From assembly GCF_001870905.1 (NCBI RefSeq), contig NZ_LNDC01000020.1:1-37581 (forward strand): a stretch of 37,581 bases of DNA, in the 5' to 3' direction. This DNA comes from Geitlerinema sp. PCC 9228 (lineage in GTDB: Bacteria; Cyanobacteriota; Cyanobacteriia; Cyanobacteriales; PCC-9228). Numbering within the stretch: the first letter of the stretch is position 1; each line of letters begins with the position of its first letter. Of the stretch, positions 4,457 to 35,803 are shown piece after piece. The translations under genes were made by a program, and so were the position numbers. The notes under the pieces were generated by a model. That model worked only from the letters and a program-made list of their open reading frames with translations. It did no database searches and was not told the origin of the DNA.

Positions 4457-4581
4457 GATATCTTTACTTTGGTTGTAACCAGGAAAATCTGTTGGGTCGG
4501 TTCGCCATGCTTTTCCACGTAGGGGTCAAGTAGATGCCAATCCCTGAATAGAGAGGATAGGTTGGGTTCGGGGGAAACGAG

Positions 4582-5493: not shown

Positions 5494-5752
5494 TATGAAA
5501 ACTTGTTTCGCCAATACGGTTGTTAAGACAAATACATCCAGATTTGTATAGATGTTCTATGCTTCTTCTATGTAGCACAAACAGGTTATCAGTAGGTTAT
5601 GCCCGCAAACAGTGTTCTTGTAGCTGAGATATTTTCACAAAAATTTTATGTTTAATTAGGGGTAAAATGTAGCGAAATTGTTGAAATTTATGAAAAATTC
5701 TGAAAAATCAAAGATTTGGCAAAATTAACCTTCAATTACTTGCTGTAGTGGC

Positions 5753-6361
5753 TTACAAACACCGCTCCACTGCCCGATCGACCTGTTGCCATAGGGTTTC
5801 TTCGGTATCGGAATTTTCCAAAACCACATCAGCACGTGCTTTTTTTTCTGACAAAGGCATTTGGGCAGACACCCTAGAGGTAGCTGCTTCCTGACTTAAC
5901 CCATCCCGCTGCATCAAACGTTGAATTTGCTGGTCGTGCGTACATGAGATTACCCAAATTTCGGTAGCTAAATCTGTAAAATTGGCTTCAAATAGCAAAG
6001 GAACCACCAAAACTACGGAATTTACCTGATGGGATAATTCTTGTACAAAACGCGATCGCACGTAGGGATGAATTTGTGCTTCCACCCACCGACGTTCCCG
6101 TTCGTCAGCAAAAATAATTTCGCCCAGCTTTTTCCGGTGCAACGTGCCATTTTCCCACAAAATTTGGTTGCCATATCGCTCCACCAAAGCCTGCCACACC
6201 GGCGACCCTTTTTCCACAGCCAGGCGGGCATAAACATCAGCATCCAAAACCGGAAATTGGTATTTTTTCGCCAAATAATCGGAAACCGTGGTTTTCCCCG
6301 TAGCGATGCCCCCGGTCAAACCAATTCGCCTTTGTTGGGTCGGCAAGTTAGGCTCTGACAT
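5753..6361 (-). CDS. coaE: Dephospho-CoA kinase
   Basis: 202 residues from the ATG at 6361. Last step of CoA synthesis: ATP-dependent phosphorylation of the 3' hydroxyl of dephospho-CoA in the cytosol. The P-loop GLTGGIATGKTT is near residue 13, followed by the family signature LDADVYARL; RYG, the HP of IHPYVRSRF, and VPLLFEANF are in the expected order, and the C-terminal QMPLSEKKARADVVLENS region is typical. Length matches the family (about 200). It lies 22 bases downstream of the large membrane protein gene on the same strand, so the two may be co-transcribed. About 260 bases of A/T-rich DNA separate it from the PhnD-like gene; no gene is seen there. Confidence 0.96.
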   Translation of the reverse strand: MSEPNLPTQQRRIGLTGGIATGKTTVSDYLAKKYQFPVLDADVYARLAVEKGSPVWQALVERYGNQILWENGTLHRKKLGEIIFADERERRWVEAQIHPYVRSRFVQELSHQVNSVVLVVPLLFEANFTDLATEIWVISCTHDQQIQRLMQRDGLSQEAATSRVSAQMPLSEKKARADVVLENSDTEETLWQQVDRAVERCL

Positions 6362-6383
6362 CAAATCCCTCCCCTCGCAATGG

Positions 6384-8297: not shown

Positions 8298-8521
8298 GGC
8301 TGATTCCCGTCAGTTAGCAAGCTTGTGGTTCCCAATCAAATCGATCGCATCGATTCCCAGCAATGGATAGACTAGATGCACCGGTTGGTTGTTTCGCTCT
8401 TCATTCAGGATAAAGGATGGATTGCTTCAGTGCATACAGAATTTTTTCAATTCTTTTCGCCAGTCGTTTGTGTGACAATAGTTGGTTGGCGGCATCGCTG
8501 GAGGGTTTGGAGTTCAATTTC

Positions 8522-9319
8522 ATGAGGATATTAATTGGTAACGACGACGGCATTCATGCGGTGGGCGTCCACGCCCTGGCAGAAGCTTTGGCAGAGGCAG
8601 GTCACGATATCACCGTAGTTTGCCCCGACCGGGAGCGTTCGGCAACGGGGCACAGTTTGACGCTGCACCAACCCATTCGTGCGCAAGCGGTGACCTCTGG
8701 ATTTCGGGAAGGCATTCAGGCGTGGTCTTGTTCGGGAACACCTGCCGACTGCATTAAGTTGGCTTTGGATGCTTTGGTGTCGCAACCGCCGCAGTTGGTG
8801 CTGTCGGGGATTAACCAAGGGCAAAATTTGGGAACGGATATTTTGTATTCGGGTACGGTGTCGGCGGCGATGGAAGGAAGTATTGAAGGGATTTCCAGTA
8901 TTGCCATGAGTTTGGCGAGCTATACCAGTCAAGATTTTCAACCAGCGGCGCAATTTGCGTGTAAATTGGTGGCGGATTTGCAGTCGCAGGCCCTGCCGGT
9001 GGGGACGTTGTTAAATGTGAATGTGCCACCGGTGCCAGCGGCAGAGTTTGCTGGCGTGGTGTGGGCGCGTCAGGGGGTACGCCGCTACGTGGATGTGTTT
9101 GAAAAACGGGTGGATCCTCGGGGGAAAACCTATTACTGGATTGCTGGGGAAGTGGTGGAAGAAGGGGCTGATGCGATCGCGAAGGATTTGCCAGAAGATT
9201 TGCCGGCTGATGTGGAAGCGATTCAGAAAAATTATATTACGATTACCCCTTTGCACTATAACTTGACTTGTAAAAATCGCCTGGAACAGTTGCGATCGCG
9301 ACAATTTCAGGTGTTTTAA
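8522..9319 (+). CDS. surE: 5'/3'-nucleotidase SurE
   Basis: 265 residues. The frame is open for 35 more codons upstream, but the conserved N-terminus [19 protein letters not shown] fixes the ATG at 8522, with a GGAG about 12 bases upstream. Divalent-metal-dependent nucleoside 5'/3'-monophosphate phosphatase of the cytosol. The metal-binding acidic pair is D8/D9 (NDDG); [54 protein letters not shown] and the later TPLHYNLT segment are all family signatures. Length is normal. It is divergent from the large coiled-coil protein gene. No operon partner follows directly: 219 bases separate it from the next gene, including a short perfect hairpin at 9427-9441 without a T-run. Confidence 0.96.
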
Positions 9320-9538
9320 TTGTTGCCAATTGGATCGTAGTCCCCAGCAAGTTGCTAGCAAGTTGGCAAGACGAACCAAACCAAGCGGGATAGACTGGAA
9401 TTAGAAGCATCTTGTCGCTCGTCTCGATCGCCGTTGGCGATGCTTGTAGGCTTGCCGTTGGCGTTTTCGGTTGGACTGTTTTGCTTGCCAGCTTCTGATT
9501 GGTTTTCCAGTTAGCCTTTCCAGCATAGCGAAAAATCC

Positions 9539-9937
9539 ATGAACGCTCACATTTTCGATAGTCACTCGATTATCTGTCCGGTCTGCCACCATACCACCCG
9601 AGTTCCTGCCAGTGGTTTGGTGATGGGATTGTTTACCTGTCCCCATTGCCGCTCTCGTTTGGTGGTTAGTTGGAGCGGACATTACGTTCGCGACCCGTTT
9701 ACCCTGCAGCAAATAGCTGTGGGTCAAATGCTACGCCGCCAAAGCCATCCCGTGGCTCGAATTGTGCGGGATTTTGTGCTGGCCAAACGCTCCGCGATCG
9801 CTTTTTTGGTAGCCAGCGCCGTCTTTTTGGGGTTAACTTGGTTGGGGACCGGCGACCCCCACACCCAACGCCCGGGATGGCGCGGTCTGTTCCGACAAGT
9901 GACGGAATGGGTGGATTTGACCACATCTGCCCCCTAG
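9539..9937 (+). CDS. Small zinc-ribbon membrane protein
   Basis: 132 residues, ATG start. The N-terminal part carries two CxxC knuckles (CPVC and CPHC, near residues 13 and 34) forming a zinc ribbon like those that preface many bacterial membrane proteins. The middle has a basic stretch and the C-terminal half has one hydrophobic segment (about 90-108, SAIAFLVASAVFLGLTWLG). No catalytic domain is visible, so function is unknown. A minus-strand open frame overlaps its start (9401-9727), but its composition is not protein-like, and the cysteine spacing on the plus strand argues for this frame. It stands alone between surE and the siroheme genes. Confidence 0.7.
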   Translation: MNAHIFDSHSIICPVCHHTTRVPASGLVMGLFTCPHCRSRLVVSWSGHYVRDPFTLQQIAVGQMLRRQSHPVARIVRDFVLAKRSAIAFLVASAVFLGLTWLGTGDPHTQRPGWRGLFRQVTEWVDLTTSAP

Positions 9938-10045
9938 CCAGCTGGATAGGTGGGGGAGATTGTTGCATTTTGTGAATTTTTTGAGAAGTCGTTATACTTT
10001 TGTTACCCTATACGATAACTTTCTGCTGTCTCCCCGGATTGTCCC

Positions 10046-10897
10046 TTGTCTGTAGCCTATTTGCTCGTTTTCCACGGTAGTCGCGACCCCAGACCGCAAC
10101 AGGCCGTCACCCATTTGGTACATCGGTTAGCGGCGCGGATATCCTCGCCCTATTCTGCTGCCCACCGCCAGGCTGCGACTTTAACGGTCGATACGGCTGG
10201 TGCTGATGGCATGCGTTGCTTAACGGCCCACTCGGCCGCAGCGCCCCAAGTGGCTTGCGCGCCGTTGGAGTGTGGTCCGCAGCCTTTGCATGGGGAAATT
10301 TATCGGCTGGGGAAAAAATTGTTGCAGCAAGAAGAAAATGCCCAGCATACAATTCGCATTTTACCTTTGTTCCTGCTGGAAGGGGTCCACGTGCGCGAAG
10401 ACATCCCTGAGGAAGTGGAACAAGCCAGACAGATGCTACCGGCAACGGTGAGCTTGCAACTGCTGACCTATATTGGTGCCTATTCGCCGCTGACGGTTCC
10501 CCTTGCCCAAGCCATGTCCGAACAAAAGGCGGATGCTTGGATGTTGGTTTCCCACGGAACCCGACGCTGCCATGGCAACCAGCCGGTGGAACGTACGGCA
10601 ACCCGGTTGGCGGAAATGACCCAGCAAGAAGTTTTTTGTGCCTATTGGTCCGTTTCCCCCTATATTGCGGAACGCATCGATACCGCGATCGCATCTGGGT
10701 ACCGGCGTATTGGTGTTTTGCCCTATTTTCTGTTTCCCGGCGGTTTGACCGATGCCATTGGCGAACAAATCCAGCAACTGCAAGCCAGCCGCCAAGTAGC
10801 GTGTTTTCTGACCCCGCCGTTGGGCGTACGAGACGAGTTCGTGCGTTTGTTGGACGAAGTGCTGGCAGCTGGTACAATAAACAATTCTGAGTATTAA
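10046..10897 (+). CDS. sirB: Two-domain sirohydrochlorin chelatase (CbiX/SirB type)
   Basis: 283 residues from a TTG codon; no in-frame ATG lies near the conserved N-terminus (VAYLLVFHGSRDPRPQQA). Two CbiX-type domains are fused: the first has VFHGSRDPR and the metal-handling stretch ILPLFLLEGVHVREDIP; the second has LVSHGTRRCHGN and GVLPYFLFPGGLTDAIGEQI. Each provides one of the active-site histidines typical of class II chelatases. It inserts Fe2+ (siroheme) or Co2+ (cobalamin) into sirohydrochlorin. Uroporphyrinogen-III C-methyltransferase, which makes the substrate precursor, lies 67 bases downstream on the same strand, so the pair likely feeds siroheme for nitrite and sulfite reductases. 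Domain 1 has an inserted Ala/Thr-rich stretch (about residues 34-68) that weakens similarity there. Metal specificity is not decided. Confidence 0.85.
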   Translation: MSVAYLLVFHGSRDPRPQQAVTHLVHRLAARISSPYSAAHRQAATLTVDTAGADGMRCLTAHSAAAPQVACAPLECGPQPLHGEIYRLGKKLLQQEENAQHTIRILPLFLLEGVHVREDIPEEVEQARQMLPATVSLQLLTYIGAYSPLTVPLAQAMSEQKADAWMLVSHGTRRCHGNQPVERTATRLAEMTQQEVFCAYWSVSPYIAERIDTAIASGYRRIGVLPYFLFPGGLTDAIGEQIQQLQASRQVACFLTPPLGVRDEFVRLLDEVLAAGTINNSEY

Positions 10898-10964
10898 TCG
10901 ATGGAACCAACGCCATCCTTGTTCGTTGCAGCAAAGGATTGGCTATACATTATCGAGCGCGACC

Positions 10965-11756
10965 ATGAGCGAGAAGCAATACAAAATCGATCCAGATATG
11001 CCAGTAGGGAAAGTCTATTTAGTCGGGGCGGGTCCCGGCGATCCGGGTTTGTTTACCCTCAAAGGCAAAGCTTTGCTAGAAATGGCCGATGTGGTGGTCC
11101 ACGACGCCTTGGTGAGTTCGGAAATTTTGGCGGCCATCAACCCCCAAGCCGAAACGATCCATGCTGGCAAGCGTCGCGGCAGGCATTCTTTGCTGCAAGA
11201 AGAAACCACCCGCCTTTTAATTGCCAAAGCCAGAGAACATGCTGTGGTGGTACGCCTGAAAGGGGGCGATCCCTTTGTCTTCGGCCGCGGTGGCGAAGAA
11301 ATGCAAGATTTGCTGGAAGCGGGCATTCCTGTCGAAGTAGTACCCGGTGTCACCGCTGGGGTGGCTGCCCCTGCCTATGCTGGTATTCCAGTCACCCATC
11401 GCGCCTATAGTTCTTCCGTTACCTTTGTCACCGGTCACGAAGCCGCTGGCAAATACAAACCCCGAGTCAACTGGCGGGCACTGGCGGCAGCATCGGAAAC
11501 GATTGTTATTTACATGGGCGTGCGCAACTTACCCCACATTGTATCGGAATTAAAAGCGGGCGGGTTAAGCGGTACGACCCCCGTCGCTGCCATTCGCTGG
11601 GGAACCACACCGGCGAATGAAGAGCTGTTTAGTACCCTCGATGCCGTGGTCGGCCAAATGTCGGAGACGGGATTTGAGGCACCGGCGATTGTGGTGGTGG
11701 GGGCAGTGGCTAATTTGCACGAAATTTTATCCCCAATTGCCCAAACCTTTCGCTAG
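10965..11756 (+). CDS. cobA: Uroporphyrinogen-III C-methyltransferase
   Basis: 263 residues from the ATG at 10965; an upstream TTG in frame is less likely. It transfers two methyl groups from S-adenosylmethionine to uroporphyrinogen III at C2 and C7, giving precorrin-2. Signatures: GKVYLVGAGPGDPGLFTLKG at the N-terminus, HDALVS, the AGKRRGRHSLLQEET loop, VVRLKGGDPFVFGRGGEE (SAM pocket), VVPGVTAGVAAPAYAGIPVTHR and TFVTGHE. Length is typical of the single-function enzyme, with no fused HemD or Met8 domain. The gene follows the chelatase. The precorrin-2 dehydrogenase that would complete siroheme synthesis is not in the window. Confidence 0.97.
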   Translation: MSEKQYKIDPDMPVGKVYLVGAGPGDPGLFTLKGKALLEMADVVVHDALVSSEILAAINPQAETIHAGKRRGRHSLLQEETTRLLIAKAREHAVVVRLKGGDPFVFGRGGEEMQDLLEAGIPVEVVPGVTAGVAAPAYAGIPVTHRAYSSSVTFVTGHEAAGKYKPRVNWRALAAASETIVIYMGVRNLPHIVSELKAGGLSGTTPVAAIRWGTTPANEELFSTLDAVVGQMSETGFEAPAIVVVGAVANLHEILSPIAQTFR

Positions 11757-11804
11757 AATCATTGCGGAGCCTCAATCAATTAGATTTTTCTGTTCTCATT
11801 CTGA

Positions 11805-12473
11805 ATGAATTCTGCGATCGCTTGGTTCAAAGAATATGGCAGCATCCTTTCGGTCTTTGCAAACCTTGGCATATTGCTGGTTTGGGTCCTATATGCCCAA
11901 TTGTTTTACCGAGACTATACCCGCCGACGTCGCCCCCGGATTATTATCCACCACGCCCCAGGGCAAGGGTTTGACTCGGCTTGCTTGCTCATCAACATGT
12001 CCCAAGAAACCATCCACATTATCGGTGTTTTGGTAGTCGTGCATACCACCGACGGTAGCTATACTCGGCGCGTTTCCGACTACTATCCGGTTTCTGCCGA
12101 CCAATACTCGTTGCGCGAAGTACAATCCCTGCTCAAACAAGGACCGCTTTCTCCTGGCAGTTTCCTGTTGCTGGGAACCTACGGCGATTTGCTACAAAAC
12201 ATTGCTCCGGGAACGGCAGAAGCAGCCAATCTCGCTGGTAAATCCGTCAAACCCCACGATGCCCAGCATATTACGGGTCTGGATATCAAAGTTGTCGCTG
12301 TCTTGGGGGGCGACGACCGTTCTATTGGGGCCAGTCGTGCCTTTTCCGTTACCCACAACGACGGTGCTGTGGATATTCGACCCCAAACTCTCTACACCCA
12401 ACAACTAGCCGGGCGGCGACAACGACCGCTACTCGATGCTTGGTTGCGAGAGTGCATGAACCTCAACAACTAA
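11805..12473 (+). CDS. One-span membrane protein of unknown function
   Basis: 222 residues, ATG start 48 bases after cobA on the same strand. A single hydrophobic helix near the N-terminus (about 13-35, ILSVFANLGILLVWVLYAQLF) is followed by a strongly basic stretch (RDYTRRRRPRIII), predicting the rest of the chain in the cytoplasm. The following domain is beta-rich (HIIGVLVVVHTTDGSYTRRVSDYYPV, ITGLDIKVVAVLGGDDRSIGASRAFSV) without cysteines arranged for metal binding or any nucleotide motif. I do not recognise the family. Location suggests possible read-through from the siroheme genes, but nothing ties its role to them. Confidence 0.7.
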   Translation: MNSAIAWFKEYGSILSVFANLGILLVWVLYAQLFYRDYTRRRRPRIIIHHAPGQGFDSACLLINMSQETIHIIGVLVVVHTTDGSYTRRVSDYYPVSADQYSLREVQSLLKQGPLSPGSFLLLGTYGDLLQNIAPGTAEAANLAGKSVKPHDAQHITGLDIKVVAVLGGDDRSIGASRAFSVTHNDGAVDIRPQTLYTQQLAGRRQRPLLDAWLRECMNLNN

Positions 12474-12516
12474 TCCTATTTTCTAAAAAATTTGCAATGG
12501 TTCGTTGGGAATTTTT

Positions 12517-12590
12517 GTAGGGGTGCCTCGCAAAGTGCCCCTGCCAGAAAAATTGAAAGATTTCTTAAAATCATTGTTTTTTAGAAATGG
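12517..12590 (-). repeat. Composite palindromic repeat element, copy 1
   Basis: The palindrome GTAGGGGTGCCTCGCAAAGT-GCCCCTGC (12517-12544) is followed by an A/T-rich arm ending TTGTTTTTTAGAAATGG. Read on the minus strand this is CCATTTCTAAAAAACAATGA, then about 20 variable bases, then the palindrome, the same order as the copies at 23101, 23828 and 36048. The remaining intergenic DNA (12474-12731) holds a further imperfect GAATTC-centred palindrome at about 12655-12680 and no gene. Confidence 0.75.
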
Positions 12591-12731
12591 GACGAGGACT
12601 GTCAAAACCCGACATTTGACGCTACGGATTCCCCCTATCGTTTTATATGAAAACCCCCCCTACAGGGAATTCTGCAGGGGAGATTTACAAACAGCGGACA
12701 AATTTTTCACTAGCGATGGAGGTGCTGGTTC

Positions 12732-25734: not shown

Positions 25735-26283
25735 ATGGAATCTGTTCAAAATTCCCAAAAAAACACCCAAGCCAATCGCAACAGTCATGCTGCCCATCCC
25801 AGCGGTGACAAGCGCTTCAAAATCCTCGATGTCACCATCAAGCGCAACCACCACCGCCAAGATGCTCTCATTGAAGTCCTCCACAAAGCCCAAGAAGTCT
25901 TCGGCTGTTTGGAAACCGACGTCCTGCTCTATGTTGCCCGGGAACTCAAACTTCCCGCCAGCCAAGTATACGGCGTAGCCACCTTCTACCACCTGTTCAC
26001 CCTCAAACCCAGCGGTACCCATACCTGCGTTGTTTGTAGCGGTACTGCCTGCCACGTCAAGGGCGGCGGTGACATCATCAAAGCCCTAGAAAAACATCTA
26101 GGCATCGAAATTGGCGAAACCACCGCAGACGGAGAAATTTCCTTGATGACCGCCCGTTGCTTAGGAGCTTGTGGCATTGCGCCGGCAGTAGTCTTTGACG
26201 GCAAAGTCGCCGGCAAACAAACCCCCGAATCGGTGCTAGAACGCATCGACCAATGGCGTCAATCGAAACCAAGCAGCGAATAG
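25735..26283 (+). CDS. hoxE: Bidirectional hydrogenase diaphorase subunit HoxE
   Basis: 182 residues, ATG start. NuoE-like thioredoxin-fold subunit holding one [2Fe-2S] cluster, ligands C101, C106 (VCSGTACH), C142 and C146 (RCLGACG). The helical N-terminal domain ([42 protein letters not shown]) is typical; the first 25 residues are a polar extension. HoxE joins HoxF and HoxU to form the NAD(P)H- or ferredoxin-linked electron-entry module of the cytosolic pentameric hydrogenase. First gene of the operon, with hoxF starting 28 bases downstream. Confidence 0.97.
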
Positions 26284-26311: not shown

Positions 26312-27916
26312 ATGGAACTATCGGAACTATTAGAAATCGGCCAACAAGAACGCACGCGTCAAAAACCCATCCGGGTTCACTGCTGTACCTCCACCGGCTG
26401 TCAAGCTGCCAACTCCCTAGGCGTCAAGAAAAAACTGGAAACCGCCGTTAACCGGAACGGATTGAGCGATCGCGTGGAAGTCGTCGGCGTCGGTTGCATG
26501 GGATGCTGCGGTCGCGGACCCCTAGTGCAAATCGATCCAGAAAACCTGGTCTACGAAGAAGTCACCCCCGAACAGGCACCCAGCATCATCAGCGGTCTCA
26601 AAGACAGTAGCGTCGTCGAAGCACAACCAGGAGATCCGGAACATCCCTTCTTCACCAAACAATTCAAAATCGTCCGGGAAACCAGCGGCAAAATCGATCC
26701 AGAACGCATCGAAGACTATATCGCCGCCGGTGGCTACCAAGGATTACACCGAGCCATCGGTGAATTTACCCCCAGCGAAATCGTCAACGAAGTATCCAAA
26801 AGTGGCTTGCGCGGTCGCGGCGGTGCTGGATTTCCCACCGGATTGAAATGGGCCACCGTTGCCAAAGCCCCAGGCGATCGCAAATTCGTCATCTGCAACG
26901 CCGACGAAGGCGATCCCGGTGCCTTCATGGACCGTTCTGTCTTAGAAAGCGATCCCCACCGGGTCTTAGAAGGGATGGCCATTGCCGCCTACGCCGTGGG
27001 GGCCAGCGAAGGCTTTATTTACGTCCGTGCCGAATATCCCCTTGCCATCGAACGCCTGCAAAAAGCCATCAAACAAGCCAAAAAATACGGCATTCTGGGC
27101 ACCCACATCTTCGAATCCCAATTCGACTTCAAAATCAACATTCGCATCGGTGCTGGTGCCTTCGTGTGCGGCGAAGAAACCGCCCTCATGCACTCCATCG
27201 AAGGCAAACGGGGCAACCCCACCCCCAGACCCCCCTATCCCGCCCAATCCGGTTTATGGGGGTACTCCACCCTCATCAACAACGTAGAAACCTTCTGCAA
27301 CATCCCCGCCATCGTTACCAACGGCGGCGATTGGTATGCCAGCATTGGCACCGAAGACAGCAAAGGCACCAAAGTCTTCGCCCTCACCGGCAAAATCCGC
27401 AACAACGGTCTCATTGAAGTGCCCATGGGCATCACCCTGCGGGAAATCGTCGAAGAAATGGGCGGCGGCGTTCCCGGTGGCGAAGTCAAAGCCGTACAAA
27501 CCGGTGGTCCTTCCGGTGGTTGCATCCCCGCTTCCCTACTCGATACCCCCGTCAGCTACGACTCCCTCGCCCAAGTCGGATCCATCATGGGGTCTGGCGG
27601 CATGGTGGTCATGGACAACCAAACCAGCATGTTGGAAGTGGCGAAATTCTACATGGAATTCTGCCGCAGCGAATCCTGCGGCAAGTGCATTCCCTGCCGT
27701 TCCGGTACCGTGCAAATGTACCACCTACTCAACAAAATTTCCGACGGGGAAGCCACCGAAGCCGATTTGGAAAAATTGGAACAACTATGCGAGATGGTGA
27801 AACACACCAGCCTGTGCGGGTTGGGTCAAACAGCCCCCAATCCCGTCATTAGTACCCTGCGCTATTTCCGCCACGAATATTCAGAACTGTTGCAACCAGA
27901 AACCATTAACGTCTGA
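26312..27916 (+). CDS. hoxF: Bidirectional hydrogenase diaphorase subunit HoxF
   Basis: 534 residues, ATG with CAGGAG upstream. N-terminal thioredoxin-like [2Fe-2S] domain (Cys24/25, Cys30, Cys62, Cys65/66), then the NuoF core: NADH-site [16 protein letters not shown] (166-180), FMN-binding [14 protein letters not shown] and [11 protein letters not shown], and [28 protein letters not shown]-terminal [4Fe-4S] site is in [12 protein letters not shown] plus SLCGLG. It carries NAD(P)H oxidation or reduction and passes electrons via HoxE/HoxU to HoxY/HoxH. All expected cofactor ligands are present and the length is normal for cyanobacterial HoxF. Confidence 0.98.
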
Positions 27917-27936: not shown

Positions 27937-28653
27937 ATGCCTGTTACCACGCTTACCATTGACGGTACGCCCGTTGCAGTGGAAACCGGATCGACCATTT
28001 TAGAAGCTGCCCAAGAAGCCGGCGTTCGCATCCCCACCCTGTGCCACTTAGATGGCGTTTCCGATGTGGGGGCCTGTCGCCTGTGCTTGGTAGAAATTAC
28101 CGGCACTCGCAAATTGCTGCCCGCCTGCGTTACCGAAGTGGCGGAGGAAATGGAGGTACATACCAACACCGAAAAATTACAAGAATACCGCCGCATGGTA
28201 GTGGAAATGCTCTTTTCTGAAGGCAACCACGTGTGTGCGGTGTGCGTTTCCAACGGCCATTGCGAACTGCAAAATATGGCGGTGGAGTTGGGAATGGACC
28301 ACAGCCGCTTTTCCTACCGTTTCCCCCAACGGGATGTGGATATTTCCCACCCCCAATTTGGTATTGACCACAACCGCTGCATCTTCTGTACGCGCTGCGT
28401 GCGGGTTTGCGACGAGTTGGAAGGGGCACACGTTTGGGATGTGGCTCACCGCTGCGCCGGTTTGAAAATTGTGGCTGGCTTGGACCAGCCTTGGGGGGAT
28501 GTAGACGCTTGTACCTCCTGCGGCAAATGCGTCGATGCCTGCCCTACGGGGGCGATTTTCCGCAAAGGCTCTACGGTCGCCGAAATGACCCGCGATCGCG
28601 GCAAACTAGAATTTCTGCAGCAAGCACGGGAGAAAGGAGAATGGACAAGGTAA
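27937..28653 (+). CDS. hoxU: Bidirectional hydrogenase diaphorase subunit HoxU
   Basis: 238 residues, ATG after GAGGAA. N-terminal plant-type-like [2Fe-2S] domain with C36, C47, C50 and C64. A NuoG-type His/Cys [4Fe-4S] motif (NHVCAVCVSNGHCEL) follows, then two ferredoxin-type clusters, CIFCTRCVRVCDE and CTSCGKCVDACPTG. It is the wire between the HoxEF flavin module and the hydrogenase small subunit. Its last 13 bases overlap the start of hoxY, so the two are probably translationally coupled. Confidence 0.98.
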   Translation: MPVTTLTIDGTPVAVETGSTILEAAQEAGVRIPTLCHLDGVSDVGACRLCLVEITGTRKLLPACVTEVAEEMEVHTNTEKLQEYRRMVVEMLFSEGNHVCAVCVSNGHCELQNMAVELGMDHSRFSYRFPQRDVDISHPQFGIDHNRCIFCTRCVRVCDELEGAHVWDVAHRCAGLKIVAGLDQPWGDVDACTSCGKCVDACPTGAIFRKGSTVAEMTRDRGKLEFLQQAREKGEWTR

Positions 28654-29189
28654 GATTCGCTACTATTTGGTTGGGGGGCTGTTCTGGATGTCACATGTCG
28701 TTTCTGGACATGGACGAATGGCTGTTTGAACTCGCCGATAAAATCGATCTGGTGTACAGCCCCTTCGCCGATGTCAAGGAATATCCCGACCATGTCGATG
28801 TCTGTTTGGTAGAAGGATCGGTTGCCAACGAAGACAACCTGGCTTTGCTGCGGCAAGCCCGGAAAAAAACCAAAACCCTGATTTCTTTTGGCGATTGTGC
28901 GGTCACTGCCAACGTACCGGGGATGCGCAATCCCATTCGCAACAGTGCCGATGCGGTTTTGAAAGCTTGCTACGTGGATATGGGCGACACCAATGCCCAG
29001 ATGCCGGAAGCTTTGGGGGTTTTGCCTCGACTGCGCGATCGCGTGCAACCGGTTCACGAACTGGTTTCTGTCGATTATTTCATGCCAGGATGCCCTCCCT
29101 CTGCCGACCGCATTCGCAATTTCATCGACCCCCTCCTGCGCGGAGAAGAACCCCCCACTGAAGGCAGAGAAGCCATTAAATTCGGATAA
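28641..29189 (+). CDS. hoxY: Bidirectional [NiFe] hydrogenase small subunit HoxY
   Basis: 182 residues. The frame is open far upstream, but the ATG at 28641 preceded by AAAGGAGA gives the family N-terminus (MDKVRFATIWLGGCSGCHMSFLD). Proximal [4Fe-4S] ligands are C14, C17, C86 (SFGDC) and C151 (MPGCPPSADRI). No twin-arginine signal, so the enzyme is cytosolic, as expected for the bidirectional group 3d type. It transfers electrons between the NiFe site of HoxH and HoxU. Confidence 0.97.
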   Translation: MDKVRFATIWLGGCSGCHMSFLDMDEWLFELADKIDLVYSPFADVKEYPDHVDVCLVEGSVANEDNLALLRQARKKTKTLISFGDCAVTANVPGMRNPIRNSADAVLKACYVDMGDTNAQMPEALGVLPRLRDRVQPVHELVSVDYFMPGCPPSADRIRNFIDPLLRGEEPPTEGREAIKFG

Positions 29190-29276: not shown

Positions 29277-30701
29277 ATGGCAAAAACTGTTTCCATCGAC
29301 CCCGTGTCTCGCATTGAAGGACACGCTAAAATTACGATTTATCTCGACGATCGTGGCGAAGTCGAGGACGCGCGTTTCCACGTGACCGAATTTCGCGGCT
29401 TTGAAAAATTCTGCCAAGGTCGCCCCATGTGGGAAATGGCAGGGATTACCGCCCGCATTTGCGGCATTTGCCCGGTCAGCCACTTACTGGCTTCCGCCAA
29501 AACTGGGGATAAAATTCAGGCGGTTCGCATTCCCCCAGCCGGCGAAAAACTGCGGCGGATGATGAATTTGGGGCAGATTATCCAATCCCACGCCCTCAGC
29601 TTTTTCCATCTCAGCAGCCCCGATTTGTTGCTAGGTTGGGATAGCAACCCCGCCCAGCGCAATATTTTTGGTGTCATGTCTGCCGACCCGGATTTGGCAA
29701 GGGGGGGCATTCGCCTGCGCCAGTTCGGACAAAAAGTGATTGAAGTGCTAGGGGCACAAAAAATTCACCCGGCTTGGGCGGTTCCGGGAGGGGTGCGTAC
29801 CCCCCTTAGCGATGAAGGCAAACAGTGGATCCGCGATCGCTTGCCGGAGTCGAAAGAGACCATTCACAAAGCCCTCGATTTGTTAAAAGGACTCATCGAC
29901 CAATTCTCCGAAGAAGTGCGCACCTTTGGCAACTTTCCTTCCCTATTTTTGGGATTGGTAGGAAAAGACGGCTTGTGGGAACACTACGGCGGCAGCATCC
30001 GCGTGGTCAATAGCGAAGGTAACCGCATTGCCGACGGTCTCAGCGAAGACAACTACCAGGATTTCATCGGCGAAGCGGTGGAAAATTGGTCCTATCTGAA
30101 ATTTCCTTACTACAAACCCATGGGCTATCCCGATGGGATCTATCGGGTAGGACCCCTGGCGCGGTTGAATATTTGCAATCGCTTTGGCACCCCAGAAGCT
30201 GACCAAGCATTGCAAGAATTTCGCGATCGCACCGGTGGCACCGCCAATGCCTCTTTCTTCTATCACTACGCCCGCCTAGTAGAAATTTTAGCCGCGATCG
30301 AACGCATCGAACGCCTGGTAGAAGACCCAGACGTACAAAATTCTCGCACCCGCGCCACCGCCGGCATCAATCAGCTAGAAGGTATTGGCGTTAGCGAAGC
30401 CCCCCGGGGAACCCTGTTTCACCACTACCACGTGGACGAAAATGGCTTAATCAAAAAAGTCAACATGATTATTGCCACCGGGCAAAATAACCTGCCCATG
30501 AACCGCACCGTCGCCCAAATCGCCAAAAACTTCATTCACTCCCAAGAAATTCCCGAAGGCATGTTAAACCGCGTGGAAGCCGGTATTCGCGCTTTTGACC
30601 CCTGTTTGAGCTGTTCCACCCACGCCATCGGTCAAATGCCCCTGCATGTGGAACTGGTGGGTGCCAACGGCGACAAATTAGATGAAGTCTATCGCCATTA
30701 G
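29277..30701 (+). CDS. hoxH: Bidirectional [NiFe] hydrogenase large subunit HoxH
   Basis: 474 residues, ATG after GGGAGG. Catalytic subunit for H2 oxidation and proton reduction. The four cysteine ligands of the NiFe(CN)2CO centre are C62 and C65 ([10 protein letters not shown]) and C443 and C446 (DPCLSCSTH). After H449 comes a 25-residue tail (AIGQMPL... to YRH) that the maturation protease removes once nickel is inserted; the protease gene hoxW is four cistrons downstream. N-terminal [14 protein letters not shown] is the large-subunit signature. All ligands are intact, so an active enzyme is expected. Confidence 0.98.
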
Positions 30702-30755: not shown

Positions 30756-30785
30756 GTCCCCCTGGTGAAGGGGGACCACAGGGGG
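30756..30785 (+). repeat. Two overlapping, mutually exclusive hairpins after hoxH
   Basis: GTCCCCC-TGGTGAA-GGGGGAC (30756-30776) is a perfect 7-bp hairpin. The same CCCCCTG can instead pair with CAGGGGG (30779-30785). The pair lies in the 136-base gap between hoxH and the ferredoxin gene and has no T-run. It may modulate expression of the downstream genes by processing or partial termination. Confidence 0.55.
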
Positions 30786-30837
30786 ATCAAAGATTTACCA
30801 ATTTTTTCGTCCCGTCCTTATTCAAAATGCAGACACC

Positions 30838-31113
30838 ATGTCTAAAGAAAATTTATATCTCTGTATGGGGTCGGCTTGCCATCAAATGGGCGTATACGAA
30901 GTGTTGCCGGCCATTCAACGGTTGCTTGCCGAATACCAAGTAGACGATCGCATCGAATTTAAAGGCTCTTTTTGTTTGGAATGTTGCAGCCACGGCATTG
31001 TTATGAAATTCCGGGATACCTTATTTTTGCATATTAACCCGGAAAACGTAGAAGAAAAATTCAAACAGGAAATCCTACCGGAAATCCAAAAAGCAGTCGG
31101 GAGTACCGTATGA
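30838..31113 (+). CDS. [2Fe-2S] thioredoxin-like protein in the hox operon
   Basis: 91 residues, ATG start. Cysteines C9 and C14 (LCMGSAC) and C46, C49, C50 (FCLECCSHG) match the NuoE/HoxE-type thioredoxin-fold [2Fe-2S] binding pattern (C-x4-C ... C-x3-C) without the helical NuoE domain. It resembles a minimal (2Fe-2S) ferredoxin able to dock to NuoF/HoxF-type proteins. Its stop overlaps the start of the PAS gene by four bases (ATGA), so the two are translated together. Probable role: a soluble redox intermediate or sensor tied to the hydrogenase or to the PAS/phosphatase pair downstream. The function is inferred from fold and context only. Confidence 0.85.
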   Translation: MSKENLYLCMGSACHQMGVYEVLPAIQRLLAEYQVDDRIEFKGSFCLECCSHGIVMKFRDTLFLHINPENVEEKFKQEILPEIQKAVGSTV

Positions 31114-31622
31114 GTCCAAACAACCGCGAAAACGAAAAAAGCCTCAGCGAACTGCTGTGGGAATACGACCCCAACGGCTTAATTGTTGTTGACCCGGATA
31201 TCAACATCAAGCTGGTCAACCCTTCTTTTTGTGAAATGTTTGCCATAGACCGCAAAAAGATTACCGGTACCCCAGCCAGCCAAATTCTGGGGGATGTCAG
31301 CAACTTTCAGAAATCCTGGAACGAAAATCGCGTTATCCGCATTCGGGAGAAAGAATATCCCCACCGGCAGCTTTGGGTCAAAAAAGTCATTTTTCCCATC
31401 CCCGAACAGAAAATTGTTGCTTGCATTATGGTGGATATCACCGCCGAAATGCAGCAGCGCCAGGAAATGGTGAACTTCAAATCGGAAACGGTGAAAAAAG
31501 TTAACGAAGTGGTAGACAACCAAATGAAAGTCGCCCAGGAAATTGCGGGGTTATTGGGGGAAACCACCGCCGAAACCAAAGTTAGCCTGCTGAAAATCAT
31601 TGAAATGGTCGAACATTCCTAA
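31110..31622 (+). CDS. Stand-alone PAS-domain protein in the hox operon
   Basis: 170 residues, ATG overlapping the preceding stop. One PAS domain (about 13-112: LSELLWEYDPNGLIVVDPDINIKLVNPSFCEMFAIDR ... IVACIMVDITAEMQQRQ) is followed by a long amphipathic helix (113-168: SETVKKVNEVVDNQMKVAQEIAGLLGETTAETKVSLLKI), which normally would lead into a kinase or output domain. Here the chain simply ends, so the signal must pass to a partner. Cys41 is the only notable redox-capable residue; no heme or flavin ligand is evident. The phosphatase gene begins nine bases downstream, making it the obvious partner. Confidence 0.85.
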   Translation: MSPNNRENEKSLSELLWEYDPNGLIVVDPDINIKLVNPSFCEMFAIDRKKITGTPASQILGDVSNFQKSWNENRVIRIREKEYPHRQLWVKKVIFPIPEQKIVACIMVDITAEMQQRQEMVNFKSETVKKVNEVVDNQMKVAQEIAGLLGETTAETKVSLLKIIEMVEHS

Positions 31623-31630
31623 CAGGTTTT

Positions 31631-32845
31631 ATGACTTCTACCGCAAAAAATTCGATTCAAGAAACGGAAAAGCACCTAAAAGAAGATAATTTCTTCGATA
31701 TTTACGATTTAAGTTTAAACAAATACGGTGAAGAGCTTTGTGGTGACAAGGTTAAATATGTAAAAACAGAAAAAACTATCACCATCGTCCTTTCCGATGG
31801 CTTGGGCAGTGGGGTCAAAGCTAACATTCTCGCCAGCTTGACCACAGAAATTTTGATTAACATGCTCAATGCTGAGGTGCCGTTGGAAGAAGTAATTCGT
31901 ACGGTCATTGGGACGCTTCCGATTTGTCAGGTCCGCAAAATCGCCTATGCGACGTTTACAGTTATTCAAATTAACAACGAGACCAATCAGTTTAAAGTTA
32001 TAAATTTTGATAACCCATCGGTTTTCTATTTTCGTAAGGGGAAACCGGTAGAGCTAGATACCAAAACGGAGAAAATTTTAGATAGAAAAGTGAAAATTGC
32101 TGAAGGTTTTATTGGGCGGGGCGATTTTTTGGCGGCTAGCAGCGATGGCGTAATTTACGCTGGCTTGGGAGGAACGATGAATTTTGGTTGGGGATGGGGA
32201 AATATTGCTGCCTATATCGAACGACAACTAACCCAGCAGCAAGCTCACACGGCAAAAACTATCGTGCGCAGCGTGATGCAGGAGACCTATTCCCTATATC
32301 AGGGTCACATTGGCGACGATGCTTCCCTGGTGGGAGTTTACGTTAGGCAGCGCAATCCGTTGATGGTGTTTACAGGGCCGCCTTTGGATAAAGACCAAGA
32401 CCGCCAGTATGTGGAACGGCTGCTGAATTTCCCCGGTCAAAAAATAATTTGTGGGGGAACTACAGGGAATATTGTGGCGAAATACATGGGAGAAACGGTG
32501 GAGATGGATATTTCGACGTTGCGCAAGGAGTTGCCTCCCATTGGTAAGCTGCCGCAAATCGATTTGGTGACGGAGGGGATTTTAACCATTTCCAAGGCGA
32601 TGGAATTGTTGCGCCAGTCGAACTGCGATGTTTCTCGGCTGCCGAACGATCGAAATGGGGCGGTTTTACTGGCGACGAAGATTTTGGAGGCGGATTCGAT
32701 TTTGTTTTTGGTGGGGCAACAGATTAACGAATTCTATCAAAATCCTCTTTTGCCTAAGAATATTTCAATTCGTCGCAGTTTGGTGGAAGAGTTGGTATCC
32801 TTGTTGCGTTCCAGGCAGAAGGAAGTGTCGGTTGAGTATTGCTAG
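31631..32845 (+). CDS. SpoIIE/PP2C-type phosphatase with extra C-terminal domain
   Basis: 404 residues, ATG start. Residues about 20-240 form a PP2C-like SpoIIE domain with metal-binding acidic motifs in place: D39 (CGDKV), D56 (LSDGLGSG), D172 (SSDG) and D229/D230 (GDDASLV). It should be a Mn/Mg-dependent Ser/Thr protein phosphatase acting in the cytosol, a group that often dephosphorylates anti-sigma-factor antagonists. Residues about 245-404 form an unassigned domain beginning FTGPPLDKDQDRQYVERLL and KIICGGTTGNIVAKYMG and ending in a helical segment (ISIRRSLVEELVSLLRSRQKEV). There are no membrane segments and no receiver or GAF domain. Sandwiched between the PAS gene and hoxW, it is most simply the output of the small redox-sensing set. 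Confidence 0.88.
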   Translation: MTSTAKNSIQETEKHLKEDNFFDIYDLSLNKYGEELCGDKVKYVKTEKTITIVLSDGLGSGVKANILASLTTEILINMLNAEVPLEEVIRTVIGTLPICQVRKIAYATFTVIQINNETNQFKVINFDNPSVFYFRKGKPVELDTKTEKILDRKVKIAEGFIGRGDFLAASSDGVIYAGLGGTMNFGWGWGNIAAYIERQLTQQQAHTAKTIVRSVMQETYSLYQGHIGDDASLVGVYVRQRNPLMVFTGPPLDKDQDRQYVERLLNFPGQKIICGGTTGNIVAKYMGETVEMDISTLRKELPPIGKLPQIDLVTEGILTISKAMELLRQSNCDVSRLPNDRNGAVLLATKILEADSILFLVGQQINEFYQNPLLPKNISIRRSLVEELVSLLRSRQKEVSVEYC

Positions 32846-32849
32846 GTAG

Positions 32850-33326
32850 ATGGCACAGCCAGACAAAATTTTGGTGGTGGGGTATGGCAATTCTTTGCGC
32901 AGCGACGATGGGGCGGCGCATGCGGTGGTTTCTCGGTTGCAGCAGCAAGAGCTGCCCCAGGTGCAAGTTTTGTCGGTACACCAACTGACCCCGGAATTGG
33001 CAGAAACGCTGTCGCAGGTGCAGCGGGCAATTTTTGTGGATGTATATATGGCCCATGGAGAAACTCAGTTACGGGTGGAACCCCTCCCCAGTCAAGAGCA
33101 GCTGGCAAGGGAGGCCCGCTGGAAGTGGATCCATCAAGCCACGCCGCGATCGCTTTTAGCCCTGACCCAATTTGTCTATGGTAGCACGCCCGAAGCTTGG
33201 TGGGTTTTGATTCCTGCGGTGAATTTGGCGTTAGGGGAGACGACTTCGGCAACCGCGCAAGCCGGCATTGATGCGGCGACAGCATATATTCTCCAGCAAA
33301 TCCATCAGTGGCAAAGGGATAGCTAA
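32850..33326 (+). CDS. hoxW: Hydrogenase maturation protease HoxW
   Basis: 158 residues, ATG four bases after the phosphatase stop. Nickel-dependent endopeptidase that removes the C-terminal tail of HoxH after the NiFe site is filled. Family marks: ILVVGYGNSLRSDDGAAHAV at the N-terminus with the nickel-sensing Asp (SDDG), IFVDVYM with the second Asp, and the HQATPRSLLAL region providing the third ligand His. Length fits the HoxW/HycI/HupD group. In this genome it ends the hox operon; the A/T-rich DNA beyond has no obvious terminator apart from a loose hairpin at 33457-33487. Confidence 0.93.
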   Translation: MAQPDKILVVGYGNSLRSDDGAAHAVVSRLQQQELPQVQVLSVHQLTPELAETLSQVQRAIFVDVYMAHGETQLRVEPLPSQEQLAREARWKWIHQATPRSLLALTQFVYGSTPEAWWVLIPAVNLALGETTSATAQAGIDAATAYILQQIHQWQRDS

Positions 33327-34081: not shown

Positions 34082-34921
34082 ATGAAAACTGAATACAACC
34101 AGCAACAAAAACAGGATTACGGCGGTGCCAATCCCATTGAAGTTCGCGACACGGAAACCTATCAAAAAGAATACATTCAGGGCTTTGTCGATAAGTGGGA
34201 CGATCTGATTGGATGGGATTCCAGAGCGCAAAGCGAACACACATTCTTTATTGACGCCCTCAAAGAACGCGGCGCCAAGAAAGTCCTCGACGTAGCCACC
34301 GGAACCGGTTTCCACTCCATCCGTTTGATTCAGCATGGCTTTGAGGTTACCAGTGCTGACGGCAGCCCCCACATGCTGGCCAAAGCATTTGAAAATGCCC
34401 GTCGCTACGACATCGTATTGCGGACTGTCAATGCAGACTGGCGCTGGCTGAACCGCGACGTTCACGACGAATACGACGCCATCATCTGCTTGGGGAACTC
34501 CTTCACCCACTTGTTCTCCGAACGCGATCGCCGCAAGGCTCTGGCAGAGTTCTACGCCGCTTTGCGTCATAACGGGGTATTAATTCTCGACCAGCGCAAC
34601 TACGACGCCATTTTGGACCGCGGCTTCTCCTCCAAACATACGTACTACTACTGCGGCGAAAACGTAAAAGCCGAACCGGAGTATGTAGATGATGGTTTGG
34701 CCCGTTTCCGCTACGAATTTGCCGATGATAACTCGGTCTACCACCTAAACATGTTCCCCCTGCGCAAAGATTACACGCGCCGGCTAATGTACGAGGTAGG
34801 CTTCCAACGCATCAAAACCTTTGGCGACTTCCAAGAAACCTACCACCAAGAAGAGCAAGACTTCTTCATCCACATCGCCGAGAAAATGTACATTGAAGAC
34901 GAAGACGAAGACGAACAGTAG
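34082..34921 (+). CDS. bsmA: Glycine/sarcosine N-methyltransferase
   Basis: 279 residues, ATG with a strong AGGAGG (34072-34077). Class I SAM-dependent methyltransferase that turns glycine into sarcosine and dimethylglycine, the first two steps of betaine synthesis in halotolerant cyanobacteria. Motif I is KKVLDVATGTGFHSIRL (67-82) with the acidic loop TSADGS; CLGNSFTHLFSERDRRKAL and DQRNYDAILDRGFSSKHTYYYCGENV are close to the Aphanothece-type enzyme in arrangement. The C-terminus is an acidic tail (EDEDEDEQ) encoded by a GAAGAC hexamer repeat, and the stop lies in a 9-base tandem repeat. The dimethylglycine enzyme follows 42 bases downstream. Confidence 0.93.
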   Translation: MKTEYNQQQKQDYGGANPIEVRDTETYQKEYIQGFVDKWDDLIGWDSRAQSEHTFFIDALKERGAKKVLDVATGTGFHSIRLIQHGFEVTSADGSPHMLAKAFENARRYDIVLRTVNADWRWLNRDVHDEYDAIICLGNSFTHLFSERDRRKALAEFYAALRHNGVLILDQRNYDAILDRGFSSKHTYYYCGENVKAEPEYVDDGLARFRYEFADDNSVYHLNMFPLRKDYTRRLMYEVGFQRIKTFGDFQETYHQEEQDFFIHIAEKMYIEDEDEDEQ

Positions 34922-34939
34922 GAACAGTAGGAACAGTAG
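34895..34939 (+). repeat. Tandem repeats across the bsmA stop codon
   Basis: GAAGAC is repeated three times (34895-34912), followed directly by GAACAGTAG three times (34913-34939). The first TAG is the bsmA stop codon; the other two units repeat it in the same frame. Pattern suggests slippage that lengthened the acidic tail and spaced the two cistrons. Confidence 0.85.
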
Positions 34940-34963
34940 GAAGTTTCGGGGAGATTCTCATCT

Positions 34964-35803
34964 ATGGCAGATCCAACCACCTATTCCGAAGCCGTCAGCA
35001 CCGCACGGGAGTATTACAACAGCAGTAGTGCGGAAAACTTTTACTCCACCATCTGGGGTGGGGAAGACATCCACGTAGGCATTTACCAAAGCGAAAACGA
35101 CACCATTTTTACCGCCAGCCAGCGTACGGTGGAGAAAATTGCCGAACAGCTGAAACTGGCTCCTTCCACCAAAGTGCTGGATATTGGTGCTGGCTACGGC
35201 GGTTCCGCGCGTTACCTGGTAAAAACCTACGGCTGCCCTGTGGATTGCCTCAACCTCAGCGAAGTGCAGAACGAACGTAACCGCAAGCTAAACCAAGAGC
35301 AAGGTGTAGCGGACAAAATTGACGTATACGACGGGGATTTTGAAGCTCTACCCATGTCCGATGCCAGCTACGATGTGGTGTGGTGCCAAGATTCCATTCT
35401 GCACAGCAGCAACCGCACTAAAGTTTTAGAAGAAGCCTATCGAGTTCTCAAACCAGGCGGTGAGTTTATTTTTACCGACCCCATGCAAAGCGATGACTGC
35501 AACCCCGAAGAAATCCAACCCGTACTCGATCGCATTCACTTGCCTTCTATGGGGTCCGTCGGCTTCTATCGGGAAGTAGCTGCACGTTTGGGATTTGACG
35601 AAGTTCAATTTATTGATATGTCCGAACAAATCCCCAACCACTACGGCAGCGTTCTCAAGGCGGTGAACGAGAACTACGATGCAACGGTGAAGCAGTGTGG
35701 CGAAGAGTACGTAGAAAACATGCGAAAGGGATTAAACCACTGGGTGAATTTTGGCAAGCAAGGCAAGCTGAAGTGGGGCATCCTGCACTTCCGCAAGCGA
35801 TAA
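34964..35803 (+). CDS. bsmB: Sarcosine/dimethylglycine N-methyltransferase
   Basis: 279 residues, ATG start with GGGGAGA upstream. Class I SAM-dependent enzyme that adds the last methyl group(s) to give glycine betaine. Motif I TKVLDIGAGYGGSARYL (69-85), acidic loop residue region DCLNLSEVQN, motif II DVVWCQDSILHSSNRTKVLEEAYRVLKPGGEFIFTDP and the substrate-region HLPSMGSVGFYREVA match the dimethylglycine methyltransferase family. With bsmA it makes a complete glycine-to-betaine pathway; betaine is the main osmolyte of strongly halotolerant cyanobacteria. A terminator follows 76 bases downstream. Confidence 0.94.
   Translation: MADPTTYSEAVSTAREYYNSSSAENFYSTIWGGEDIHVGIYQSENDTIFTASQRTVEKIAEQLKLAPSTKVLDIGAGYGGSARYLVKTYGCPVDCLNLSEVQNERNRKLNQEQGVADKIDVYDGDFEALPMSDASYDVVWCQDSILHSSNRTKVLEEAYRVLKPGGEFIFTDPMQSDDCNPEEIQPVLDRIHLPSMGSVGFYREVAARLGFDEVQFIDMSEQIPNHYGSVLKAVNENYDATVKQCGEEYVENMRKGLNHWVNFGKQGKLKWGILHFRKR

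Follow-up and report, generated by a model that had tools for sequence, protein, structure and literature searches.

The window analysed in this work is the whole stretch of 37,581 nucleotides at positions 1 to 37,581 (forward strand) of contig NZ_LNDC01000020.1 from Geitlerinema sp. PCC 9228, a cyanobacterium with a genome of 4.8 Mb. It contains a hox operon for an NAD(P)-linked [NiFe] hydrogenase with the gene order hoxE, hoxF, hoxU, hoxY, hoxH, fdx, PAS, ppm and hoxW, all on the (+) strand, and we deal here with the three genes placed between hoxH and hoxW, which encode a [2Fe-2S] protein (fdx), a PAS protein and a SpoIIE/PP2C-type phosphatase of the PPM family (ppm). An earlier note on this DNA had described them as three same-strand cistrons with the parts of a redox-to-phosphorylation relay. 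Re-reading the coordinates confirmed the layout: fdx and PAS overlap by 4 bases, 8 bases separate PAS from ppm, and 4 bases separate ppm from hoxW. The gap between the end of hoxH and the start of fdx measures 136 bases. The features of the region, with protein lengths in amino acids (aa), are the following:

25735..26283 (+): hoxE, diaphorase subunit of the NAD(P)-linked [NiFe] hydrogenase (NCBIfam NF005747 HoxE, 277.8 bits, cut-off 224, equivalog)
26312..27916 (+): hoxF, diaphorase subunit (NuoF-family match, 490 bits; N-terminal 2Fe-2S thioredoxin-like domain)
27937..28653 (+): hoxU (NCBIfam NF005745 HoxU, 415.9 bits, cut-off 333, equivalog)
28644..29189 (+): hoxY, small hydrogenase subunit, start not settled (VhuG/FrhG/ShyD-family matches, all below cut-offs)
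29277..30701 (+): hoxH, [NiFe] large subunit (PF00374, 114.5 bits; class orthologues at 63-79% identity)
30838..31113 (+): fdx, predicted 91-aa thioredoxin-like [2Fe-2S] protein with C-x4-C ... C-x3-C (PF01257, 25.7 bits, cut-off 24.8)
31110..31622 (+): PAS protein, 170 aa, predicted HydS-type PAS plus output helix without the H-cluster part (PAS_9, 31.7 bits, cut-off 27)
31440..31616 (+): predicted C-terminal signalling helix of the PAS protein, residues 111-169, conserved stretch Q138-L160 (AlphaFold2 model)
31631..32845 (+): ppm, SpoIIE/PP2C-type phosphatase, 404 aa (PF07228 SpoIIE, 59.5 bits, cut-off 25, residues 47-236)
32850..33326 (+): hoxW, hydrogenase maturation protease (TIGR00072, 65.2 bits, cut-off 47.45)
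34082-34921 and 34964-35803: two tandem S-adenosylmethionine methyltransferases downstream of hoxW (Pfam methyltransferase matches only)

The fdx product is, by its sequence, a putative thioredoxin-like [2Fe-2S] ferredoxin (PF01257) with a predicted cluster. The C-x4-C and C-x3-C cysteines of the window protein are kept in 83 aligned rows, as read by eye, and its best sequence match in the PDB is the C-terminal part of Thermotoga maritima HydA (7p5h_A, residues 569-618, E 1.9e-5).

The ppm product is predicted, from its sequence and its structural model, to be a SpoIIE/RsbU-type PPM phosphatase with a PP2C fold and intact metal-binding aspartates. Residues D56, G57, D172, D229 and D230 are invariant in 67 phosphatases of the family, and conserved aspartates of this kind build the metal site of PP2C enzymes. 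In a fold comparison with VIA-align, which covers mainly residues 18-241, the model matched the Sphaerobacter phosphatase 3pu9 (Z 24.6, root-mean-square deviation 2.8, 218 residues) and SpoIIE 5ucg (Z 24.5, deviation 2.8, 214 residues), followed by the RsbU-RsbW part of Rv1364c, with RsbX also scoring high. The window phosphatase shares the catalytic fold and the metal residues of SpoIIE, RsbU and RsbX, but, unlike them, it has no regulatory domain ahead of the PP2C part (residues ~17-241) and it carries an extra conserved C-terminal domain of about 160 residues (~242-404; 32351-32842) without known match. This domain is conserved from Cyanobacteria to Firmicutes, with G275-G276 and T314-E315-G316 invariant in the 67 phosphatases, and the window copy gave neither a Pfam match nor a PDB sequence match up to E 5. 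The same domain gave two weak Pfam matches (E 0.13 and 0.18) in the phosphatase of locus L051 and no Pfam match in that of L126.

The PAS protein had been described in the earlier note as lacking any output domain. This needs correction, in that the protein ends in a predicted helix that holds the most conserved residues of the family. The AlphaFold2 model (mean predicted local distance difference test score 90.3, predicted template modelling score 0.67) consists of a PAS fold followed by one helix of 59 residues, and seven of the eight invariant columns in 52 PAS sequences fall within this C-terminal helix (Q143, I145, A146, L149, G150, E151 and L160).

To see how far the three genes travel together, a scan of 84,980 species genomes yielded 336 relatives, of which the best 80 were examined, and these loci, together with the window, the first relatives and some later loci, make up a set of 97 from Cyanobacteria, Chloroflexota, Omnitrophota, Firmicutes and one unplaced bacterium (two entries, L021 and L135, are apparently the same record). 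The phosphatase is found in 96 loci, a PAS gene upstream of it on the same strand in 90, and both PAS and fdx in 83. In these 83 loci the median intergenic gaps are 9 and -1 bases, and both gaps are shorter than 100 bases in 77. The idea of the earlier note that the trio is one signalling set is therefore borne out by a conserved order, [2Fe-2S] protein, PAS-bearing sensor and PPM phosphatase, that the window shares. In L056, on a short contig, the phosphatase was not recovered even in a search on all open reading frames (ORFs), and in the Firmicutes locus L085 the phosphatase is present with no PAS found in the 3 kb upstream. The window phosphatase is 38-43% identical to those of the Firmicutes loci. 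Closer to the window, the phosphatase was found in five of 60 genomes (its own and its relatives), i.e., in the window's genome and in four others at 67-73% identity, three of which have the whole hoxEFUYH-fdx-PAS-ppm order.

In a survey of 244 genomes of the phylum, every genome with a PAS of the family (E<1e-20) also had the phosphatase (E<1e-40) and vice versa, 95 genomes in all, a count that leaves out one weak partial phosphatase match (G230, E 8.8e-5). Twelve phylum loci were inspected, seven with a long PAS protein, two with a short one and three with the phosphatase and no PAS or fdx nearby. Moreover, in four genomes of one family the phosphatase stands apart, yet each of them retains the short PAS at another place (E 1e-54 to 1e-62), as an fdx-PAS pair behind hoxH in one genome, as an fdx-PAS pair alone in two, and as a PAS gene without detected fdx in one. 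The retention of both PAS and phosphatase after dispersal is stronger evidence of a joint function than neighbourhood.

The tie of the set to hydrogenases was evaluated in 289 Cyanobacteriia genomes, where the phosphatase (E<=1e-30) was found in 21 and HoxH (E<=1e-100) in 103. Both co-occur across genomes: the phosphatase is accompanied by HoxH in 21 of 21 cases and is present in 0 of the 186 genomes without HoxH (Fisher 9e-11, a count that disregards the shared ancestry of the 21 genomes, which belong to 13 genera). In 15 of the 21 genomes the phosphatase gene lies within 5 kb of hoxH. The other 82 of the 103 HoxH genomes have no phosphatase, indicating that Hox works without it. In a follow-up check, which shares at least four genomes with the 289-genome survey so that the counts are not additive, HoxH was present at 71-79% identity in ten cyanobacterial genomes that had no nearby full hoxH or only a short contig, at 56-60% in two Chloroflexota and as a fragment in a third, with no match at E 1e-10 in the genomes of L045, L046 and L047. 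The condition that would have refuted the earlier note, a set occurring mostly away from hydrogenases, does not hold: among the 72 loci whose flanks extend at least 5 kb upstream and 3 kb downstream, 50 have a further hydrogenase gene within reach. The suggestion of the earlier note that similar sets accompany [FeFe] hydrogenases was confirmed in Firmicutes, HydABC-type genes included; Thermotogae were not among the 80 loci kept. The HydS of T. maritima also sits in a hydrogenase operon (PMC10055695; this and the other papers are cited for the passages that bear on these genes).

The set lies between hoxH and hoxW in the window, as it does in several relatives, which may suggest that it serves hydrogenase maturation or direct control of the enzyme, the phosphatase acting on a Hox subunit or an assembly factor with fdx and PAS as a checkpoint; in L015, L030 and L131 the phosphatase adjoins hoxW, and fdx and PAS were not found nearby. 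In L015, two ORFs ahead of the phosphatase (8437-9680) encode what we take to be DUF820/Uma2 proteins, recalling sll1222 of the Synechocystis hox operon. We regard a maturation role as quite unlikely, given that 82 of the HoxH genomes do without the phosphatase, that 6 of the 21 phosphatase genes are not within 5 kb of hoxH, and that the same module stands beside [FeFe] hydrogenases and adhE. To our knowledge, [FeFe] hydrogenases use no HoxW-type protease, which also counts against it.

Another explanation would be that the trio is a group of operon passengers, like the PIN toxin-antitoxin pair of the Synechocystis hox operon. Its patchy presence (21 of 103 HoxH genomes) fits this idea, as does the occurrence of other small ORFs inside hox operons (PMC4963859). 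Nevertheless, the gene order is the same across several phyla, the catalytic and helix residues are invariant, with no catalytic drift in 67 phosphatases, and PAS and phosphatase are held by the same 95 genomes and are retained together after dispersal, all of which makes passengers highly improbable. The earlier note had also wondered whether the Synechocystis 6803 genes sll1222, ssl2420 and sll1225 encode the same proteins. This match had to be rejected, since the published annotation (PMC4963859) sets them apart as DUF820 and a PIN-type toxin-antitoxin pair (DUF820, hypothetical and PIN, versus PF01257, PAS and SpoIIE); in this comparison of annotations the likeness is that of extra ORFs inside a hox operon, and the families differ.

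The nature of the set becomes clearer when the middle gene is compared across the loci. The PAS protein lengths are two-peaked, 139-218 aa in 42 of the 90 loci and 382-653 aa in 48, the contig ends cutting two short ones (L054, L094) and one long one (L084). The long proteins carry an [FeFe] sensor core. In Firmicutes, with the exception of L095, complete copies have 558-653 aa including this core, and the order of Pfam domains in L050, L069 and L071 is 4Fe-4S, Fe_hyd_lg_C, FeS and PAS (the Pfam domains of L130 were also read). At the sequence level this is the domain plan reported for HydS/HfsB sensory hydrogenases. The middle gene starts at the PAS domain and encodes 166-218 aa in Cyanobacteriia, Chloroflexota, Omnitrophota and one unplaced bacterium, with an apparently frame-shifted copy of 139 aa in L044. 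Across the phylum survey the division is equally sharp, with PAS frames of 170-230 aa in 9 of 9 Cyanobacteriia and of 570-596 aa in 86 of 86 other genomes, relatives of non-photosynthetic type, 85 of which belong to one family (f46) with genomes of 1.6-2.3 Mb that we assume to be, probably, gut Vampirovibrionia. The 170-aa protein of the window has PAS matches only, with neither the H-cluster domain of the sensors (PF02906) nor their C-terminal 4Fe-4S domain (PF04060), and for this reason it was not filed as HydS. The output-helix invariants are common to short and long forms. We conclude that the window PAS protein corresponds, as judged from these comparisons, to the output half of a HydS without the hydrogen-sensing head.

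The PAS core of the short clade has features of its own. All 38 short-clade sequences have W17, C41 and W70. In the 47 long forms the usual residues at these positions are others, with mostly E (26), M (6), N (5) or Q (4) at position 41; these counts leave out L054, L094, L084, L044 and L095, and near-copies remain among them. It thus appears from the alignment that the headless clade gained its own invariant Trp/Cys residues. A helix that is kept and a PAS core that has changed, i.e., output kept and input changed, is what the re-plugging of an existing switch predicts.

The history of the head was followed on a tree of 85 phosphatases, unrooted and built without 11 of the 96 rows, judged near-copies. 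The short form falls in one set of 37 rows (SH-like approximate likelihood ratio test 99), comprising 31 short forms, five loci without nearby PAS and one at an edge. The fewest short/long changes on this tree are two, a second short PAS being that of Tissierella simiarum (L095), inside the long-form Firmicutes. Since long forms stand on both other sides of the unrooted tree, a loss of the head in the short-form clade is the simplest reading of these sequences. The L095 locus (9209-12664) is complete in its contig, with fdx 22 bases before PAS and a gene for a 488-aa [FeFe] hydrogenase behind; PF02906 occurs in its genome in two frames, of 490 and 462 aa, neither of them a 570-aa sensor, and its short PAS lacks residues of the W17/C41/W70 type. 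By the tree, this headless PAS between fdx and phosphatase is independent of the main headless clade.

We have also considered that the head might be supplied in trans in cyanobacteria. This was ruled out by the absence of PF02906 from all 22 phosphatase-bearing cyanobacterial genomes searched, the window's genome included (16 of the 21 of the class survey, four of the 244-genome survey, and those of L027 and L031). Outside the cyanobacteria, PF02906 is absent from two of three Chloroflexota genomes and present in the third, in the genome of L045 and in both Omnitrophota genomes.

The closest described counterpart is the hfsABCD locus of Thermoanaerobacterium saccharolyticum, where hfsB encodes a sensory [FeFe] hydrogenase with a PAS domain, hfsC a serine phosphatase and hfsD a hydrogenase (PMC5707799). 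The order of a small protein, a PAS-bearing protein, a serine phosphatase and a hydrogenase is that of many Firmicutes loci; the Hfs system was compared by its published description. Unlike HfsB, which has a hydrogen-activating domain, the window PAS protein has none, and the window hydrogenase is a [NiFe] HoxEFUYH enzyme. The same difference in the input domain separates the window protein from the HydS of Ruminococcus albus (as told in PMC5707799) and from that of T. maritima (PMC10055695). A second counterpart is RsbQ-RsbP of Bacillus subtilis, in which a PAS domain drives a PPM serine phosphatase via a coiled helix and a second protein feeds the PAS (PMC3183031). However, PAS and phosphatase are one chain in RsbP and two in the window, and the partner is a hydrolase in RsbQ and a [2Fe-2S] protein in the window. 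The PAS of RsbP has no DIT motif, whereas that of the window has VDIT before the helix.

We consider it probable that the trio is an H-cluster-less version of the Hfs/HydS phosphatase module, i.e., a redox-gated PPM switch that has been re-plugged onto an NAD(P)-linked hydrogenase and that would steer fermentation; the input, the target and the sign of this switch, as well as every step from electron transfer to target, are what we infer. The conserved helix of the PAS protein would dock on the switch helices of the phosphatase and set its activity, as the PAS-coiled coil does in cis in RsbP. In place of H2 at an H-cluster, the switch would take as its input the redox state of the hydrogenase (NAD(P)-linked) and of the diaphorase, which either the [2Fe-2S] protein would hand on to PAS or the PAS itself would sense at the site that gained W17, C41 and W70. 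If the hfs genetics are a guide, fdx-PAS would restrain the phosphatase until the signal sets it free. The phosphatase would then dephosphorylate a serine-phosphorylated regulator, probably of the STAS anti-anti-sigma kind, and fermentation genes such as adhE, perhaps also hox, would thereby follow the redox load. SpoIIE, RsbU and RsbX act on phosphoproteins of STAS pathways. A more specific version, which we put forward as possible and distinctly tentative, is that in cyanobacteria HoxEFUYH took over the sensing role of the lost H-cluster: the electron or NAD(P)H state of this hydrogenase would reach, via the [2Fe-2S] protein, a PAS with a new redox site (W17, C41, W70), the enzyme being its own sensor and setting the phosphorylation of a fermentation regulator.

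Several published systems make such a switch plausible. SpoIIE is switched by the movement of two switch helices under a long regulatory helix (PMC5468089), and in RsbP, which receives its input from a partner protein, PAS, coiled coil and PPM form one chain (PMC3183031). The trio looks like an RsbP/SpoIIE-like design in separate chains. When either hfsA or hfsB was deleted in T. saccharolyticum, ethanol rose ~1.8-fold and adhE rose as well, with wild-type hfsC and hfsD needed, from which we read, by analogy, that HfsA/HfsB may hold HfsC back (PMC5707799); HfsC has been called serine-phosphatase-like (PMC11837493). The signalling of H2 partial pressure to fermentation genes was proposed in R. 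albus and is supported by the T. saccharolyticum deletions (PMC5707799). In our set of loci, six of the 97, from three lineages, have a full-length adhE that precedes the trio and shares its strand: L027 and L031 in cyanobacteria, L076, L086 and L090 in Firmicutes, and L137 in f46. The gap to the trio is 9 bases in L076, 3 bases in L086 and 152-770 bases in the others, and a seventh, partial adhE match lies at the edge of L048. This neighbourhood independently supports adhE as an output. A phosphatase of this kind would, by analogy, be opposed naturally by an RsbW-type kinase. Two small frames for RsbW-like kinases exceed the cut-off in the window genome, on other contigs, and an RsbW-type HATPase_c_2 gene stands in the row of L063 (Firmicutes). 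Along with this kinase, the Clostridia row (431-11152) comprises HydCBA-type genes, a PAS-less [FeFe]-FeS protein, fdx, HydS and the phosphatase. It presumably also holds DRTGG-like and PHP-like proteins.

The place of fdx in the switch has to be weighed separately. The protein might be an ordinary electron carrier of the hydrogenase, with PAS and phosphatase forming a separate two-gene regulator that senses, e.g., oxygen or light. Its resemblance to the C-terminal part of T. maritima HydA points in this direction, as do the best fold matches of the PAS model, which are short LOV proteins, and the seven of the 90 PAS loci in which fdx was not found. In L130 (8481-9374, (-) strand) an fdx domain is fused behind the C-terminus of a catalytic-type [FeFe] hydrogenase, directly upstream of HydS and the phosphatase, a fusion that links fdx to the enzyme, in a frame that starts near the contig end. 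Against a separate carrier, fdx still adjoins PAS where the phosphatase has moved away (L142, L143 and L144; not found in L145), indicating that fdx tracks PAS, and the hfsA and hfsB deletions of T. saccharolyticum give the same phenotype, the hfsA deletion being polar (PMC5707799). On balance, we consider a separate carrier unlikely. In a small-genome clade of the phylum (L126-L129, L137), a second fdx-like gene was observed between the phosphatase and the next [FeFe] hydrogenase.

Returning to the re-plugged switch, a number of observations weigh against it. The shared ancestry behind the Fisher count and the 82 HoxH genomes without phosphatase have been mentioned above. No further hydrogenase gene was within reach in 22 of the 72 loci with flank, i.e., in 7 of 28 short-form, 11 of 40 long-form and 4 of 4 PAS-less loci. 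HydA-type [FeFe] genes lie near the trio in the short-clade loci L042 and L047 (Pfam domains read for L042), suggesting that the link is to NAD(P)-linked hydrogenases and not to [NiFe] enzymes alone. The loss of the head was deduced by parsimony from an unrooted tree; the very long branch of L130 and the long-branch warning of the program leave its root not settled. Three of the seven PAS loci without detected fdx are at contig ends, and fdx was found in neither of the two Omnitrophota loci examined. HfsA was equated with fdx by gene position and not by sequence; it is reported to align poorly with known proteins and to resemble in part an [FeFe] large subunit (PMC11837493), and the hfsA deletion had a polar effect of two- to six-fold on hfsB-D (PMC5707799). 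The partner proposed for R. albus HydS was not a phosphatase but a neighbouring Ser/Thr kinase (PMC5707799). Finally, we recognised neither a STAS gene nor a kinase gene next to the trio in the window, no search aimed at STAS having been made.

Concerning the remaining features of the region, the hoxH-fdx gap contains a GC-rich hairpin (30757-30786), of which the genome holds one copy. It was discarded as an attenuator, its fold z-score being -1.41 with 20 of 200 shuffles equally good. Promoter-like sites numbered 9 versus a shuffled mean of 8.7, and terminator-like sites 17 versus 13.8. The tandem methyltransferases (34082-35803) are, as we assume, similar to the enzymes of betaine synthesis that methylate glycine/sarcosine and dimethylglycine.

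The module and its parts are already known in Firmicutes as hfs/HydS, and the headless form with Hox is a new variant. Among the papers listed in the literature searched, from which subscription journals are mostly missing so that priority is not established, none deals with the trio in hox operons or with a headless form with Hox. The trio offers a concrete three-gene candidate for how cyanobacteria report the state of their bidirectional hydrogenase to the cell, its phosphatase being found only with HoxH in the Cyanobacteriia sampled. A 2026 paper on a group D sensory hydrogenase named the finding of the interaction partner as critical (PMC13104023). For PAS-bearing sensory hydrogenases, the 95 of 244 genomes in which PAS and phosphatase coincide, together with the output helix common to short and long forms, point to the adjacent phosphatase as the partner. 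The family provides a natural experiment, in which one phosphatase output operates either under an H-cluster head or without it, so that comparing headed and headless forms tells apart the signal sensed by the head and the way in which the PAS helix drives a PPM phosphatase. In Thermoanaerobacterium, ethanol and hydrogen yields depend on the hfs switch (PMC5707799), and in cyanobacteria such as Geitlerinema a known bacterial fermentation switch appears to have been re-plugged into a different input.

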